Shown here in pieces: positions 6,606 to 40,223 of a stretch of 64,000 nt of DNA (its first letter is position 1; every line of letters begins with the position of its first letter). Where the stretch lies: contig NZ_CP014619.1 in the NCBI RefSeq assembly GCF_002074055.1, forward strand, positions 1,426,001 to 1,490,000, read 5' to 3'. The DNA is from Frondihabitans sp. 762G35. Lineage in GTDB: Bacteria; Actinomycetota; Actinomycetes; Actinomycetales; Microbacteriaceae. The notes under the pieces were generated by a model that saw only the letters and a list, made by a program, of their open reading frames with translations, made no database searches and was not told where the DNA came from. Made by a program: the position numbers and the translations under genes.

Positions 6606-6615
6606 CGACTCCGGC

Positions 6616-6723
6616 GGGTTCGCCTCGCGCCCGGGTTCGCCTCGCGCCCGGGTTCGCCTCGCGCCCGGCGCCGTCTCGTGGTCGGCATCGTCTCGTCGTC
6701 GGCTTCGTCTCGTGGTCGGCATC
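6616..6723. repeat. Two adjacent sets of 17-bp tandem repeats
   Basis: Three perfect head-to-tail copies of GGGTTCGCCTCGCGCCC occupy 6616-6666. Six bases later, three copies of a second 17-mer, GTCTCGTGGTCGGCATC, occupy 6673-6723; the middle copy differs at two positions. The set lies just after the glycan operon. No unit is clearly part of a gene. Equal unit length in two unrelated sequences is unusual. Confidence 0.85.
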
Positions 6724-6813: not shown

Positions 6814-7500
6814 ATGACACTCACCGCACCCTCCAACGCCTCCCGCCCCGTCGCGTCGTCGTCCCCGTCGTCGTCTCCCTCTTCAGGGTCCTCCTCGGCG
6901 ATTCCTTCTCCGTCGCCCGACTCCTCGACCTTCGACTCCCACCGACCGCTGTCCACGCGCTGCGACCTCGACGCCCGCGTCCGGCAGCTGGTGCCGTGCG
7001 CCGTGCAGCGGCAGCTGTGGCTCCTGCTGCTCGACGCCGACGACGTGCAGCTCCCGGTCATGGTCCCCCTGGGTGACATCCCCCTCCGGGGAGGCAGCGC
7101 CGACGGCGAGGGTCTGATCGAGATGCTGCGCTCGCTCGCGCGCGAGTTCGCGGCGGCGTCCTTCGTCTTCATCCTGGAGCGCCCCGGTCCGCCGTCACCG
7201 CGCTACGACGACCGCCTCTGGCTGACGATGCTGCTCACCATCGGTCCGACCGAGACGTTCGGCGTCCGGGCGGCCTTCCTGGCCCACGACGCCGGGATCA
7301 CCGGCTACGACGTCGGCGATCTGCCCGATCTCGCCCCCGCTCCGACTGCCGGGTGCGGCGCCTCCGCATCCCGGGCGCTCGTGCAGGACGAATGCTGCGC
7401 CCGCTGTGCACCGGGCGCCGACGTCCGGCCGATTCAGGCGTCCTCGGACGAGTCCCGGTGCCGCCACCAGGCCGTCTCGGCGAGTTCCTTCGAGGTGTAG
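6814..7500 (+). CDS. Hypothetical protein with Ser-rich N terminus
   Basis: A 228-residue protein of unknown function. Residues 1 to about 45 are low-complexity Ser/Pro. About 50-165 look like a compact soluble domain with the block RQLWLLLLDADDVQLP and a later DDRLWLTMLLTIGPTE. I recall similar uncharacterised proteins in actinobacteria but can name no function. The ATG at 6814 is chosen because the upstream frame runs through 17-bp repeats; GATGCT lies six bases before it as a possible leaderless -10. The last 60 or so residues are Cys/Ala-rich and overlap the opposite-strand gene at 7434-7643, so the natural C terminus may have been lost to a frameshift. Confidence 0.55.
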   Translation: MTLTAPSNASRPVASSSPSSSPSSGSSSAIPSPSPDSSTFDSHRPLSTRCDLDARVRQLVPCAVQRQLWLLLLDADDVQLPVMVPLGDIPLRGGSADGEGLIEMLRSLAREFAAASFVFILERPGPPSPRYDDRLWLTMLLTIGPTETFGVRAAFLAHDAGITGYDVGDLPDLAPAPTAGCGASASRALVQDECCARCAPGADVRPIQASSDESRCRHQAVSASSFEV

Positions 7501-7643
7501 ACCCCGAGCGGGTGCCGCTCCGACTCGACGAGAGACCACGCGGTGAGCTTGTATCCGCGCGCGAAGGCCTCGACGAGCGCCTCGGGCGGGCTCGAGTCGT
7601 GCCGGCGGACGAGCCAGCTGTCGGGTCCGCTTTCGTCGAGCAT
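7434..7643 (-). CDS. Small hypothetical protein (69 aa)
   Basis: A 69-residue protein starting MLDESGPDSWLVRRHDSS and ending in TAWWRHRDSSEDA. Its composition is balanced and protein-like, with alternating hydrophobic positions (LVEAFARGYKLTAWSLVESE), unlike the Arg/Pro-rich shadow frames around it. Support for the start is a TACGAT hexamer six bases upstream of the ATG, the same leaderless layout as other genes in this window. It converges with and overlaps the end of 6814-7500 by 67 bp. No family or function recognised. Confidence 0.6.
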   Translation of the reverse strand: MLDESGPDSWLVRRHDSSPPEALVEAFARGYKLTAWSLVESERHPLGVYTSKELAETAWWRHRDSSEDA

Positions 7644-7655: not shown

Positions 7656-7761
7656 CTGGCTGGGCGCGGGGTCGCCCTCTGCGGTGGGCGACCGGCCTGG
7701 TCGGCGCCCGGGTCGCTGCACTTTCGTGTCGGCCCCGGCGGCGGGCGGCCCCGCGCGCGCT

Positions 7762-8382
7762 GCGATTCCACGTTTTGCCACGTGGGCGGAATGTGAGCGG
7801 CGTGTTGTGGAGTCTCGCGGGGTGGGGCGTGGCCGCGTGTGGCCGACGCGTGTTGCGACTCCACGTTTTGCCACGTGGGCGGAGGCTGAGCGGCGTGTTG
7901 TGGAGTCTTGCGGGGTGGGGCGTGGCCGCGTGTGGCCGGCGCGTGTTGCGACTCCACGTTTTGCCACGTGGGCGGAATGTGAGCGGCGTGTTGTGGAGTC
8001 TCGCGGGGTGGGGCCCGGCGGCGCGGGGCCCGGGCGTGCTGCGACTCCACGTTTTGCCACGTCGGTGGAACGTGAGCGGCGTGTTGTGGAGTCTCGCGGG
8101 GTGGGGCGTGGCCGCGTGTGACCGATGCGTGCCGCGACTCCACGTTTTGCCACGTCGGTGGAACGTGAGCGGCGTGTTGTGGAGTCTCGCGGGGTGGGGC
8201 GTGGCCGCGTGTGACCGATGCGTGCCGCGACTCCACGTTTTGCCACGTGGGCGGAAGCTGAGCGGCGTGTTGTGGAGTCTCGCGGGGTGGGGCCCGGCGG
8301 CGCGGGGCCCGGGCGTGCTGCGACTCCACGTTTTGCCACGTCGGCGCAAGGTGATCGGCGTGTTGTGGAGTCTCGCGGGGTG
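7762..8382. repeat. Array of seven 93-bp palindromic repeats
   Basis: Units start at 7762, 7855, 7948, 8041, 8134, 8227 and 8320, each exactly 93 bp after the last; the seventh stops after about 63 bp. Each unit opens with GCGACTCCACGTTTTGCCAC (first copy GCGATTCC) and contains GTGTTGTGGAGTC, so GACTCCAC and GTGGAGTC can pair into a hairpin spanning about 51 nt. Units 4 and 5 are identical over all 93 bp. The linker alternates between a CGTGGCCGCGTGTG type and a CCCGGCGGCGCGGGG type in the order a,a,b,a,a,b. 93 is a multiple of three, so several frames stay open through the array, but this looks like non-coding DNA. A related two-unit copy lies at 38767-38949. Confidence 0.95.
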
Positions 8383-8433: not shown

Positions 8434-10299
8434 CTAGCGGCGGCTGCCGATCCGGCCGCGGAGCACGTCGATCCGCTTCTGGATCTGCTCCGTGGAGGCC
8501 TGAGCGACGGCGGGGCCGCCGCTGATCCGGCGCAGGTCGGCGTGGATCGTGCCGTGGGGTTCGTTCGAGTGGCGCGACCAGATCGAGACGAGGCGGCTGA
8601 GCTCCTGCCGCTGCTCCTTGATGGTCTGGTAGAGCGGCCGGGCCTCCTGCACGACCTGCGTCGGCAGACCCGTCTTCGGGGCGCGTTTCGCGCGGCCCGC
8701 CTGGGTGGCCTGGCGCTGACGGAGGAGGTCGCGCACCTGGTCGGGCTCCAGGAGCCCGGGGATGCCGATGAAGTCGAGCTCCTCCAGGCTGCCGATCTCG
8801 CCGCCGGAGCCGAACTCTCCGCCGTCGTAGAGGACGCGGTCGAACGAGGCCTGCGCGTCGAGGGCCTCGAACGGCTGCTGCTCGAGAAGGCTGGACGCCT
8901 TCTCCTCGCGGTTGGCCTCGGCGACGAGGGCGTCCTCCTCGGGGGTGAAGAGCCCGTCGTCGGCGTCGGTGGGTCGGTCGAGGGCGTGGTCGCGTTCGAG
9001 CTCGAGTTGTCCGGCGAGAGCCATGAGGCTCGGGACGCTCGGAAGGAAGATCGATGCGGTCTCTCCGCGGCGTCGGGCACGGACGAACCGGCCCACCGCC
9101 TGGGCGAAGAAGAGCGGCGTGGAGGCGCTGGTGGCGTAGACGCCGACGGCCAGCCGGGGGACGTCGACTCCCTCGGAGACCATTCGGACAGCGACCATCC
9201 AGCGGCTGTCGCCGTCGGAGAACGCCTGGATCCGGTCGCTCGCGGCCTTCTCGTCGGAGAGGACGACCGTCGGTCGCTCCCCCGTGAGCCGGGTGAGGAT
9301 CGTCGAGTAGGCGCGTGCGGCCGTGTGGTCGGTCGCGATGACGAGGCCGCCGGCGTCGGGGACGCCGCGCCGGACCTCGGTGAGCCGCTTGTCGGCGGCC
9401 GACAGCACGGCCTGCATCCAGTCGCCCTGCGGGGACAGGGCCGTTCGCCAGGCCTGCGCGGTGATGTCTTTGGTGACGGCTTCGCCGAGCGTGGCGCTCA
9501 TCTCGTCGCCCATCCGGGTGCGCCAGCGCATGGCTCCGGCGTAGGCCATGAACAGGACGGGGCGCACGACGCCGTCGGCGAGGGCCCGACCGTACCCGTA
9601 GGAGTAGTCGGACTGCGAGGTGCGGATGCCGTGCTCGTCGGGCGCGTACTGGACGAACGGGATCGGAGCCGTGTCGGAGCGGAACGGGGTACCAGTGAGG
9701 GAGAGCCGTCGGGTCGCTCGGCCGAACGCCTCGCGGATGCCGTCGCCCCAGGTGAGGGCGTCGCCGCCGTGGTGGACCTCGTCGAGGATGACGAGGGTGC
9801 GCCCCGCCTCCGTGATGGCCCGGTGGACCTCGGGCTTCATCCCGACCTGCGCGTAGGTGATCGCGACGCCGTGGTAGTGCCGCCCGAAGGTGCCGTCGCC
9901 GTTCTTGAACATCGGGTCGAGCCGGAGGTTGACGCGGTCGGCGGCGTCGGCCCACTGGCGCTTGAGGTGCTCCGTCGGGGCGACGACGACGACGCGGTCG
10001 ATCTCACCGCGCGAGAGGAGCTCGGTCGCGAGGCGGAGGGCGAAGGTCGTCTTGCCGGCGCCGGGTGTCGCGGCGGCGAGGAAGTCGCGCGGCGACGTCG
10101 CGAAGTACTTCTCCAGCGCCTCGGCCTGCCAGGCGCGCAGCTTGCCCGCGGTGCCCCAGGCGGCCCGCTCGGGGAAGGCGGGCGAAAGGTGCTCGGCGGC
10201 CGAGTTCCCGGCGGAGACGCCCGCGGATTCGACGGACTCCGCCTGGCCCAGATCGGGGCCCTGCGGCTCGTCGGGAGGGGTTGTGCTGGCGATGCTCAC
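8434..10299 (-). CDS. DEAD/DEAH-box (SF2) helicase
   Basis: A 621-residue superfamily 2 helicase-type ATPase. Walker A is ATPGAGKTT (77-85), the Walker B variant is DEVH (173-176), motif III region is SLTGTPFRSD, and the C-terminal lobe carries MVSEGVDVPR and the arginine-finger motif QAVGRFVR. The layout resembles the helicase subunit of restriction-like proteins, yet no methylase or nuclease gene is nearby. Chromosomal homologues of this type are common in actinobacteria and their role is unknown to me. The GTG at 10299 follows a TAGAAT hexamer by eight bases, and that hexamer contains the dinB stop codon. The 93-bp repeat array begins about 50 bp beyond its 3' end. Confidence 0.88.
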   Translation of the reverse strand: MSIASTTPPDEPQGPDLGQAESVESAGVSAGNSAAEHLSPAFPERAAWGTAGKLRAWQAEALEKYFATSPRDFLAAATPGAGKTTFALRLATELLSRGEIDRVVVVAPTEHLKRQWADAADRVNLRLDPMFKNGDGTFGRHYHGVAITYAQVGMKPEVHRAITEAGRTLVILDEVHHGGDALTWGDGIREAFGRATRRLSLTGTPFRSDTAPIPFVQYAPDEHGIRTSQSDYSYGYGRALADGVVRPVLFMAYAGAMRWRTRMGDEMSATLGEAVTKDITAQAWRTALSPQGDWMQAVLSAADKRLTEVRRGVPDAGGLVIATDHTAARAYSTILTRLTGERPTVVLSDEKAASDRIQAFSDGDSRWMVAVRMVSEGVDVPRLAVGVYATSASTPLFFAQAVGRFVRARRRGETASIFLPSVPSLMALAGQLELERDHALDRPTDADDGLFTPEEDALVAEANREEKASSLLEQQPFEALDAQASFDRVLYDGGEFGSGGEIGSLEELDFIGIPGLLEPDQVRDLLRQRQATQAGRAKRAPKTGLPTQVVQEARPLYQTIKEQRQELSRLVSIWSRHSNEPHGTIHADLRRISGGPAVAQASTEQIQKRIDVLRGRIGSRR

Positions 10300-22191: not shown

Positions 22192-22200
22192 GCGCACTCC

Positions 22201-22248
22201 GCCCGACGCTCCCCCCGCCCGACGCTCCCCCCGCCCGACGCTCCCCCC
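22201..22248. repeat. Three perfect 16-bp tandem repeats
   Basis: GCCCGACGCTCCCCCC is repeated exactly three times head to tail (22201-22216, 22217-22232, 22233-22248), 10 bp after the exonuclease stop codon. It lies outside any gene and just before the palindrome at 22295-22360. Confidence 0.85.
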
Positions 22249-22294
22249 GATCGCACACGGCTTCCCCCGCAAACGACTGGACCCGTCAAACGAC

Positions 22295-37478: not shown

Positions 37479-37769
37479 ACCTAAACCTCTTCCTGTGTCT
37501 GACGAACGCGCTCTGCCTGAAGAACGCGAGGAACACTCGGGGCATTCCCTCTTCGGCACGACAGAGCTCGCAGCTTGCGCTGCTTAGAATCGTCGAGTAG
37601 CTCCGCTGCTCCCTCTGATGAGGGTGCAGTCGGCTGAGGCCCGTGAATGCGGCCCCGGCTGGTGGTCTCTCGACTCGGCGGTCGCCGTCGACCCGCCCGT
37701 TCCGGATGTATTCCCGAACCCCACGATTCTACAGGTCGAGGCTCGAAAAGTGACGAAGGGCAGCAATCC
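37479..37769. other. Divergent regulatory region sufB/ctaA
   Basis: A 291-bp gap with no gene. It contains a small hairpin, GCAGC-GCAA-GCTGC on the minus strand (37583-37570), with a GNRA-type loop in what would be the sufB leader, about 92 nt before the ATG. GATTCT hexamers occur on both strands, but I could not assign firm promoters. Confidence 0.5.
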
Positions 37770-38735
37770 GTGAGCAACGCACAGGCAACGGCCACCGGAC
37801 TGGTTTCGCGAGTATGGTCCTGGCTGCCCGACACCGTCGACCGCCGCGTGCGATTCCTCGCCTGGGCGTCGTTCGTCTGCCAGGTGGTGCTCATCGGCAC
37901 CGGCGGGCTCGTGCGCCTCACCGGGTCCGGACTCGGCTGCCCGACCTGGCCCCAATGCACCGACGGGTCGTTCGTCTCGACGCCGGAGATGGGCATCCAC
38001 GGGATCATCGAGTTCGGCAACCGGTTGCTCACGTTCGTGCTCGTGATCATCGTGATCGCGGCGTTCGTCAGCATCCTGCGATTCCGTCGCCAGCGGCGGG
38101 ACCTCTTCCGCCTGACCCTGATCCAGGGACTCAGCATCCCGTTCCAGGCCGTCGTCGGCGGTCTGAGCGTGCTCGCCAAGCTGAACCCGTACGTCGTCGG
38201 CTCGCACTTCGTGATCTCGATGATCCTCGTGGCCCTGACCGCGACGCTCGTCTACCGGGCCTACCGCGGGCCGCGCGGGACCTCGTCGGCGACGCCGTCG
38301 TGGTACGCCACGTTGGCTCGTGTGGCAGCGGTGTTCGTCGGGATCACGGTGGTCCTGGGCATCCTGACCACTGGTGCCGGCCCCCACGCCGGAGACGCCA
38401 ACACGCATCGCAACGGATTCGACACGACCGTCATCCAGCACGTGCACGCGATCCCGGCGTACGTGCTCTTCGCCCTGACGCTCGTGCTCGTCGTCGGGGC
38501 GCTCCGCTCCGGGCTGCCGCGACGGTTCCCGTCTCTCCTGCTCGGTGTCGAGCTGCTGCAGATCGTCGTGGGGCTCACCCAGGCGCGGACGGGACTCCCC
38601 GCCGGGCTCGTCGGCACGCACATGGTCCTGGCAGGCCTCCTCGTGGGGGCGATGACGGCGGTCGTGCTGACGCTGCGGGCTGACGCCGACCTGACGAAGC
38701 CGGTGCCCGAGGCGGCGGAGGTCGCTGCGGCCTGA
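37770..38735 (+). CDS. ctaA: Heme A synthase (COX15/CtaA family)
   Basis: A 321-residue membrane enzyme that oxidises heme O to heme A for the aa3 cytochrome oxidase. About eight helices are visible. Conserved features are GGLVRLTGSGLGCPTWPQC near helix 1, IEFGNRLLT, and His-bearing segments HFVISM, VIQHVHA and GTHMVLA that ligate hemes. The GTG at 37770 has AAGGG about nine bases upstream. It converges with ctaB, the preceding enzyme of the same pathway, across a repeat-containing gap. Confidence 0.95.
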   Translation: MSNAQATATGLVSRVWSWLPDTVDRRVRFLAWASFVCQVVLIGTGGLVRLTGSGLGCPTWPQCTDGSFVSTPEMGIHGIIEFGNRLLTFVLVIIVIAAFVSILRFRRQRRDLFRLTLIQGLSIPFQAVVGGLSVLAKLNPYVVGSHFVISMILVALTATLVYRAYRGPRGTSSATPSWYATLARVAAVFVGITVVLGILTTGAGPHAGDANTHRNGFDTTVIQHVHAIPAYVLFALTLVLVVGALRSGLPRRFPSLLLGVELLQIVVGLTQARTGLPAGLVGTHMVLAGLLVGAMTAVVLTLRADADLTKPVPEAAEVAAA

Positions 38736-38766: not shown

Positions 38767-38949
38767 GTGAGACTCCACGTTTGGCCACGCCGGGCGAAGG
38801 TGAGTGGCGTGTCGTGGAGTCTCGCCGGGGGCGTGGGCGCAGCGCGCGCGGGATTGCGTGACGTGAGACTCCGCGTTTGGCCACGCCGGGCGAAGGCGAG
38901 TGGCGTGTCGTGGAGTCTCGCCGGGGGCGTGGGCGCAGCGCGCGCGCGG
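38767..38949. repeat. Two 96-bp palindromic repeats (same family as 7762-8382)
   Basis: Units start at 38767 and 38863 (period 96 bp). Each reads GTGAGACTCC(A/G)CGTTTGG, later GGCGTGTCGTGGAGTCTCG. In unit 1 GAGACTCCAC (38769-38778) pairs perfectly with GTGGAGTCTC (38814-38823). Compared with the array at 7762 the sequence matches at the conserved ACTCCACGTTT-GCCACG and GTGGAGTCTCGC positions. It lies between convergent ctaA and ctaB. Confidence 0.9.
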
Positions 38950-38960
38950 GGTGGAGCTGC

Positions 38961-39896
38961 CTAGAAGGGCAGGAGCGGGTCGATCCCGACCGCGAGGAAG
39001 ATCAGCGTCAGATACGTGATCGACGAGTGGAAGACCCTCATCGGCTGCACCTCGGCGACGTGCTGGATGGCACGACCGTAGAGGCGGTGCGACTCCCAGA
39101 TGAACCAGGCCCCGCTCGCCACGGCGACCGCCGTGTAGACGACTCCCATGTGCGCGACCGGCACGAGCAGCAGCGAGCACGCGACGGTGGCCCACGCGTA
39201 GAGGATCACCTGGAGGCCGACGTGGGCGCGACCGCGGACGACGGCCAGCATCGGCACGTTGACCGACGCGTAGTCGTCGCGGTAGCGCATCGACAGCGGC
39301 CAGTAGTGCGGCGGGGTCCAGAGGAAGATGACGAGGAACAGGATGACCGGGGCCCAGGTGAGCGACCCGGTGACGGCCGCCCAGCCGATGAGGACCGGCA
39401 TGCATCCGGCGATGCCGCCCCAGACGATGTTCTGCGGGGTGCGGCGCTTGAGCCAGAGCGTGTAGACGAAGACGTAGAAGAGGATGGCGCCGAGCGACAG
39501 GGCGGCGGAGAGCGGGTTGACCGTGAACCAGAGCCAGACGATCGAGGCGACGCCGATGACGTAGGCGAACACGAGAGCCTCGCGATCGCTGACGTCGCCC
39601 GTGACGAGCGCGCGATCCTTGGTGCGCTTCATGATGCGGTCGATGTCGCGGTCGATGTAGCAGTTGAACGCGGAGGCGGAGCCGGCGCTCAGGGCGCCGC
39701 CGATCAGCGTCGCCGCGATGAGCCAGAGATTGGGCACGCCGCCCTGGGCGAGGAACATCGTCGGAGCGGTCGTGACGAGCAGGAGCTCCATGACCCGGGG
39801 CTTGGTGAGGGAGACGTACGCACGGACCTTGCGTTTGACGCCGATGCGGGCTCGACCCGCTTCGGGGCCGGAGCGAGTGTCGAGTGCAGCAGTCAT
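38961..39896 (-). CDS. ctaB: Protoheme IX farnesyltransferase (heme O synthase)
   Basis: A 311-residue UbiA-family membrane prenyltransferase that farnesylates heme B. The first Asp-rich motif is [20 protein letters not shown], and the second region is [36 protein letters not shown] is the family start. About nine helices are visible. The ATG at 39896 is chosen because AGAGGA lies just before it; the long upstream open frame is Arg-rich shadow. It works with CtaA to make heme A and is divergent from tkt. Confidence 0.95.
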
Positions 39897-40223
39897 ACGT
39901 CCTCTGGGAAACGGGCCCCGGAGTGGGGCGGGCGGCCGTCGGAGAGCCCGACCTCGGCCTTGGCAGAGTCTAAACGATGAATGTCTACGCTCACGGCGAT
40001 AAGCACGACGTCGAGCGGACGGCGGAACCCGGTACCTCCCTATACTGGCAGGTGCTTGCCAGTTGCAGCACCCGGGCGCCGACCTCACTGATCGTGTCGA
40101 TGTCGCCCTAGACGCATGTCTGCAGCGGGGCCGATAAGCCTGAGTCGACGGAGCCTCGGCAGGCGCCATGTCAGTGCGGGGGCGAAACCCGTGCTATCTC
40201 GCATCAAGAAGGGTCATCTTCAA
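39897..40223. other. Divergent leader region ctaB/tkt
   Basis: A 327-bp region without a recognised gene. It holds a good -10 TATACT at 40041-40046 with an overlapping inverted repeat, then about 170 bp of tkt leader. The leader contains short complementary segments, e.g. GCCT-CGGC-AGGC and GGG-GCGAAA-CCC, that could fold but match no riboswitch I know. The last 25 bases before the tkt GTG are distinctly AT-richer than the surroundings. Confidence 0.5.
40041..40063 (+). promoter_or_regulatory. tkt promoter -10 with overlapping inverted repeat (candidate operator)
   Basis: TATACT (40041-40046) is the best -10 in the region. ACTGGCA (40044-40050), GGTGCT and TGCCAGT (40057-40063) form a perfect 7-bp inverted repeat that shares three bases with the hexamer and covers the expected transcription start. 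A repressor bound here would block initiation of the pentose phosphate operon. The regulator is unknown. No good -35 was found. Confidence 0.5.

Follow-up and report, generated by a model that had tools for sequence, protein, structure and literature searches.

REPINs are high-copy, species-specific palindromic units, and they depend on RAYTs. BIME-2 elements are bound and cut by DNA gyrase, with IHF in the inter-REP sequence. In PMC3733652 and PMC2817692, REP/BIME sequences are described as small palindromes with more than 100 extragenic copies, placed behind genes or between convergent or co-oriented ones; their clusters have spacers of similar length and different sequence, and the cognate RAYT gene is flanked by copies. 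TIRtrons, according to PMC3733652, carry an enzyme gene (TIRYT) between double-palindromic ends, and these ends also occur as scattered repeats.

The window analysed here is the whole 64,000-bp stretch at positions 1426001-1490000 of the single 3,409,251-bp contig of Frondihabitans sp. 762G35. The palindrome family represented in it by a seven-unit array resembles REP/BIME families in its 117 exact copies, in the lack of overlap between its clusters and called genes (0 of 45), in the co-oriented or convergent setting of its clusters (45/45 in 762G35 and 15/20 in other genomes), in its clusters with linkers of similar length and unlike sequence, and in a cognate-type gene flanked by copies. It differs in its unit of 51-52 bp (20-40 in REP), in its symmetric ends, with GCGA/TCGC on both sides in most units whereas the REP foot is GTAG or CGTC, and in its linkers, which lie on a helical grid. 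The flanked gene would encode a PD-(D/E)XK-type nuclease and not the Y1 transposase of REPtrons. An enzyme gene between palindromic ends that also occur scattered is shared with TIRtrons, whereas TIRYTs are HUH tyrosine transposases and the enzyme here is DUF559/MTES_1575-like. High copy number and species specificity are shared with REPINs; no RAYT was found in the genomes of the genus, the RAYT-type transposase domain (Y1_Tnp) being matched in 0 of 7 Frondihabitans genomes (control, 5/14). The family behaves like a BIME family but fails as REP on size, tag and RAYT. Among the matches listed from the open-access literature, no paper on Frondihabitans repeats or on the helical phasing of REPs was found.

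Results

Structure of the seven-unit array

The array was returned by Tandem Repeats Finder at 7754-8382 with a period of 93 bp, 6.8 copies, 90% matches and no indels, and also with a period of 279 bp (2.3 copies, from 7734), which bears out the exact 93-bp units and agrees with the three-unit block whose duplication the earlier note suggested. Each repeat consists of a 51-bp palindromic core and a 42-bp linker, and the cores follow in exact 93-bp steps. A single mismatch is found in core 1 (GATTCCAC). Core 4 has the same sequence as core 5, as first claimed, and the linker order a,a,b,a,a,b was confirmed; linkers that repeat in this way agree with the claim that CRISPR-like unique spacers are lacking. 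The position given for the array, between an SF2 helicase gene and a 69-aa gene, both on the minus strand, was kept, and the statement that there is no transposase is true at the array locus itself. The features are as follows.

7434-7643, minus strand: flanking 69-aa gene, no Pfam family; refound by motif scan in 3/6 relatives' loci
7764-7814, plus strand: palindromic core 1, 51 bp, one mismatch
7815-7856, no strand: linker 1 of six, each of 42 bp (four helical turns)
7857-7907, plus strand: palindromic core 2
7950-8000, plus strand: palindromic core 3
8043-8093, plus strand: palindromic core 4, identical to core 5
8136-8186, plus strand: palindromic core 5
8229-8279, plus strand: palindromic core 6
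8322-8372, plus strand: palindromic core 7
8434-10299, minus strand: flanking SF2 helicase gene, start uncertain; its ResIII and DEAD domains score over the cut-off, and its 3' end is followed by the array

In Frondihabitans sp. PhB188 (L127), the 69-aa gene next to the helicase gene is on the opposite strand compared with 7434-7643 of the window. No match at the gathering score was given by Rfam in the window, no DNA match to the array by the plasmid and phage collections, and no exact match to the relaxed palindrome pattern by the viral contigs. The window also has two other tandem repeats, short and perfect, with units of 17 bp (6615-6668) and 16 bp (22199-22249) and 3.2 copies each; they are unrelated to the palindrome family.

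A genome-wide family of palindromes

The locus had been taken for a single odd one, which proved wrong: the genome has about sixty clusters of a 51-52 bp palindrome, this array among them. The genome search with a hairpin pattern proposed earlier was run, and GACTCCACN{25,45}GTGGAGTC gave 117 exact matches (reversed control, 0), a relaxed pattern 152 at no more than one mismatch, and another relaxed pattern 172 at two mismatches (control, 3); by BLAST, the seven-unit array matched 49 places. The family is far from chance. A second array of the family lies within the window at 38771-38917.

38771-38821, plus strand: second array, core 1, between the converging ORFs 37647-38735 (plus) and 38961-40169 (minus), starts uncertain
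38867-38917, plus strand: second array, core 2, one mismatch, after a linker of 45 bp

The products of these two ORFs are presumably similar to heme A synthase and protoheme IX farnesyltransferase.

The set used for further analysis, smaller than the genome total of 152-172 units, comprised 145 units in 62 clusters; it was limited to units of 51-52 bp with no more than two mismatches, two with three mismatches being admitted (608195 and 831405) and 21 units being added from listings. There were 19 single units, 20 pairs, 14 triples, three clusters of four, five of five and one of seven, the last being the array described above. Units within arrays are more alike (87% vs 77%), so many arrays look tandemly copied. 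The B-to-A polarity of the units is biased by strand (38 clusters vs 17, p=0.006), and the bias is seen in each half of the deposited sequence; the origin was not placed by the sampled GC skew.

Anatomy and folding of the units

Although 41-61 bp were allowed, the matches listed were 51 or 52 bp long. In 125 of the 145 units a variable B arm, GACTCCACG(A/T)TT(G/T)GC, is joined to a conserved A arm, GAAnGTGAGYGGCGWGTYGTGGAGTC; 15 units have two A arms and five were left unclassed. Within a set limited to 51-52 bp, all 15 two-A-arm units were of 52 bp and 122/125 B-A units of 51 bp. In most arrays the palindrome is longer, to about GCGAGACTCCAC...GTGGAGTCTCGC, with GCGA...TCGC outside the core; the seven-unit array of the window is without that extension, its linkers ending in TGC. 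No T-run follows the arms of the palindromes.

The check by folding and covariation, which the earlier note had proposed, was run. The first units of the 62 clusters had a mean z of -3.7 with DNA parameters, and 94% were below -2 in comparison with shuffles, whereas the seven units of the window array fold weakly (z -0.1 to -2.0 with DNA and -1.9 to -3.7 with RNA parameters). In Frondihabitans sp. Leaf304, where the 15 units at hand of 51 bp were taken, 92.3% of cells formed the 19-pair stem, against no more than 38.8% in slid controls. Cells with a change on both sides numbered 34, a value reached by 0 of 500 shuffles; from these counts the palindrome is therefore kept. The number of pairs with two-sided change (8) was not above shuffles (191/500), the number of pair types was not clearly above them (37/500), and much of the covariation may be due to subfamilies. 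One Leaf304 subfamily carries GTAG within both arms and not at the foot.

Placement relative to genes

With a home-made gene caller, 31 of the 45 clusters with flanks had convergent neighbours, 12 had minus-strand genes on both sides, two had plus-strand genes on both sides and none lay between divergent genes. Since the 69-aa gene had escaped this caller, the window array belongs to the same-strand class and the convergent clusters are 30 of 45. The convergent excess was significant against the adjacent gene pairs of the window (10/56, p=7e-7) and against those with gaps of at least 100 bp (5/21, p=0.0015). No called gene was overlapped by any of the 45 clusters, and at least one gene ended before the cluster in all of them. 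Among 20 units of other genomes, counted after three rows from unrelated single matches had been left out, 11 were convergent, four same-strand and two divergent, one lay inside a called gene and two were cut off. An expressed protein with a 31-residue repeat had been named beforehand as an observation against a palindrome array. It was not borne out, because the periods of the other arrays (82, 83, 92, 94, 103 and 104 bp) are not multiples of three and no called gene overlaps the 45 clusters.

Helical phasing of the linkers

The lengths of the linkers fall into classes close to three, four and five helical turns: 36 were of 31-34 bp, 35 of 40-45 bp and seven of 52-53 bp, together 78 of 83, the independent linkers being fewer than counted owing to tandem copying. 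The remaining five were of 57, 59, 71, 101 and 116 bp, and none was of 35-39 or 46-51 bp. For the non-redundant linkers (n=53, one value per array and class) R was 0.755 at 10.5 bp and 0/20,000 jittered sets were as strong, and for those of no more than 60 bp (n=50) R was 0.80 and was reached by 0/20,000 uniform sets, both nulls scanning fewer periods than the observed value did. Start-to-start distances (n=50) were best fitted by whole multiples of 10.38 bp.

Linkers of equal length from different arrays were 44% alike (shuffled, 42%), with 0/101 pairs above 70%; as judged by sequence comparison, the linkers of different arrays are not homologous. Among unlike neighbouring units, 16 of 18 pairs were no more than 2 bp off the grid, where 39% would be expected, the grid being anchored on the data and seven of the 18 pairs coming from two arrays. 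The four close pairs of Leaf304 all join unlike units, and their starts fit the grid at 84, 94 and 104 bp and miss it at 70 bp (3/4).

Distribution and the same sites in relatives

Of 15 matching stretches, 13 came from Leaf304 and PhB188, and a relaxed match was found in 6 of 398 genomes of the taxonomic family. Leaf304 contains about 24 units (26 matches; control, 3). Single matches were also obtained from two MAGs and from a few genomes of the family, and were taken for chance.

Behind the helicase gene, no unit of the 762G35 family was present in the stretch viewed in any of the six other Frondihabitans genomes. Leaf304 has two other palindromes there, G001 one of 64 bp and G006 GC-rich tandem ones; a 62-bp palindrome in G002, missed by the scan, and CAAGGA repeats in PhB188 were read by eye, and G005 has no dyad. 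At a second site, with five units in 762G35, there are three tandem palindromes in G002, one other palindrome each in Leaf304 and G005 and a short terminator-like hairpin in G001, with no dyad in PhB188 and G006. At both sites the relatives are too diverged for an insertion boundary to be read.

Other repeats were seen in these genomes. At a convergent gene end of G002 (L178), three tandem palindrome copies contain ACCTATAGGTAAGCCCTC. G001 has its own dispersed family, with 82 matches of AACGCGAC-N28-GTCGCGTT; its members are near-perfect hairpins of AACGCGACACCTGCGACG-N8-mirror with compensatory variants (e.g. L133:5896-5939), and no close tandem pairs occurred among the matches listed. In G006, a 64-bp palindrome family AAACCCTC...GAGGGTTT is found (L155:12000-12063, L156:2277-2650), with three copies close together (139 and 171 bp). 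In the PhB188 genome (G003; L144-L151), the non-palindromic word GGCGCAGGAACTC occurs 276 exact times (139 and 137 per strand, respectively) against 1-5 in six sister species, and the related shorter words GCAGGATC, CGCAGGAGC and CAGGATCC are enriched in the samples of other species. The PhB188 word is one which we take to resemble DNA uptake sequence dialects.

A candidate nuclease gene between palindromes

In 762G35 (locus L061), a gene of 301 aa (1622-2527) has a single unit (2893368) on one side and an array of three units (2894449) on the other. The Leaf304 homologue (L117, 46% identity) has a palindrome unit directly behind the gene, on one side, and that of G298, a genome of another genus with three family matches in all (L102, 40% identity), lies between two copies. 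The 762G35 protein gives weak Pfam matches to REase_MTES_1575 (1.3e-4; 22.4 bits, cut-off 38.2) and DUF559 (0.0021; 18.3 bits, cut-off 20.6), both below the curated cut-offs, and two Tsukamurella homologues are annotated as DUF559. We know of no link of the DUF559/MTES_1575 family to flanking palindromes.

Besides these three loci, which were chosen for their palindromes and were left out of the test, nine of the 12 homologues were found by protein similarity alone with palindromes disregarded: two in the sampled stretches (PhB188 L147 and Leaf304 L164), one on a phage-labelled contig, and, on plasmids, three of Arthrobacter and a partial one of Nonomuraea with the 762G35 query and two of Tsukamurella with an Arthrobacter query. 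MTES_1575 was matched at 0.01 by 6/9 aligned homologues (best, 1.3e-6). E201, D235, an E/Q-Y/H-D/E-G block and H252 are conserved in the nine-protein alignment, giving an acidic, nuclease-like core near the C end, which in our own reading of the alignment is putatively of the PD-(D/E)XK type. The single-sequence structure prediction of the Leaf304 nuclease was unusable (mean pLDDT 36), and the profile search against solved structures gave nothing below E=0.038, with PvuRts1I (0.14) among the matches.

The 330-bp flanks shared a word of at least 13 bp in 6/9 homologues and 8/225 control genes (Fisher p=1e-6), and dyads of score at least 13 stood on both sides in 4/9 homologues (L147, L164, L180 and L185) and 10/225 controls (Fisher p=9e-4), with the boundaries of L147 and L164 taken from the protein match (longest-ORF boundaries, which overrun the palindromes, give 5/9 and 2/9, respectively) and with controls that were Frondihabitans genes of similar length from the sampled stretches, 7/9 homologues being from other genera. 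The shared words were of 14 (L164), 22 (L180), 15 (L182), 13 (L184), 21 (L185) and 22 bp (L186), and those of L147 (11), L181 (10) and L183 (11) were too short. A dyad on at least one side was found in 85/225 control genes; one-sided dyads being common in controls, only the two-sided, same-family measure is telling.

The palindromes of L147 and L164 occur in only two places each within their 160-kb samples. An Arthrobacter record has three direct arms 31 bp apart, which is three turns. On the two Tsukamurella plasmids (L185 and L186) the words shared by the flanks of the annotated DUF559 genes are inverted, and in L185 strong palindromes stand on both sides of the gene.

Discussion

The reading preferred here, for which the evidence is evenly poised, is that the array arose when a REP-like palindrome, itself non-autonomous, expanded locally in tandem; this palindrome would be bound on one face of the DNA and have a nuclease as its partner. 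No other enzyme is as good a candidate for this partner as the nuclease with flanking copies, in an arrangement that recalls REPtrons, and this nuclease probably drives the palindrome family; homologues of its gene elsewhere stand between copies of palindromes of other kinds. We infer that its target would be the palindrome in double-stranded form, that it would break the palindrome or its surroundings, and that it would partner the palindrome as a RAYT partners REP, repair of the break then spreading or rearranging the copies. If adjacent units of an array were each occupied by protein, all contacts would be made from one helix face, so that unit starts would come to stand about 8, 9 or 10 turns apart. 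The arrays may have a use for the host as well, such as the insulation of converging genes from each other that has been proposed for BIMEs; the results on the nuclease make the mobile, enzyme-linked reading likelier and the insulator role less likely. Of the three roles offered in the earlier note, that of a non-autonomous element gains from dispersal, species-specific expansion and the flanked nuclease gene, and that of a protein-binding site, still putative, from the whole-turn spacing; for a structured RNA array there are the placement behind genes and the clusters that mostly fold better than shuffles.

The palindromes around the nuclease gene could instead be its operators or terminators, the scattered copies having been multiplied by another route in which the nuclease takes no part. 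Such an arrangement would agree with the common occurrence of a palindrome on at least one side of control genes (85/225) and with the single nuclease gene seen in the sampled part of the 762G35 genome against at least 145 units. It is nevertheless unlikely: two-sided repeats of the same family were seen in 8 and 10 of 225 controls against 6 and 4 of 9 homologues, and operators need not stand behind a gene. The phasing itself could be a by-product of copying, in which a complex sitting on an existing copy directs the following one to the same helix face, with no use for the host. Neighbours that are unlike and of opposite orientation, at 32 or 43 bp (82013, 2318490, 2321805 and 3237946), the species-specific expansion of the palindromes, and two of six relatives without a dyad at the site with five units in 762G35 all suit this explanation, but a direct repeat of 8 bp (candidate target-site duplication) was found at only one of nine single copies, none being consistent across the nine, and the greater likeness of units within arrays (87% vs 77%) makes many arrays look tandemly copied. 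Copying onto one helix face is also regarded as improbable.

Quite improbable is the reading in which an RNA hairpin is what matters and the palindromes are bidirectional terminators or stabilisers of 3' ends. It would account for the position behind at least one gene in 45/45 clusters, for z below -2 in 94% of 62 clusters and for the stem kept in the Leaf304 units, but it leaves the 10.4-bp grid without explanation, the arms are without a T-run, and the seven units of the window fold weakly as DNA.

The 10.4-bp grid across unrelated linkers is a quantitative sign of double-stranded protein sites. The finding matters for how REP-like repeats work and spread where no RAYT exists, and the DUF559-like nuclease genes between their own palindromes in Microbacteriaceae, Arthrobacter and Tsukamurella are a concrete candidate for the partner enzyme. 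Tentatively, and with the balance of judgement somewhat against it, these loci may belong to a new class of small elements, mobile or selfish, in Actinomycetota. A DUF559/MTES_1575-like nuclease gene would lie between two copies of a gene-specific palindrome, and wherever such a system does well the palindrome would spread as scattered arrays with helical phasing. If true, this class would stand to PD-(D/E)XK nucleases as REPtrons stand to HUH transposases, and DUF559/MTES_1575, a large protein family of unknown function, would gain a role.
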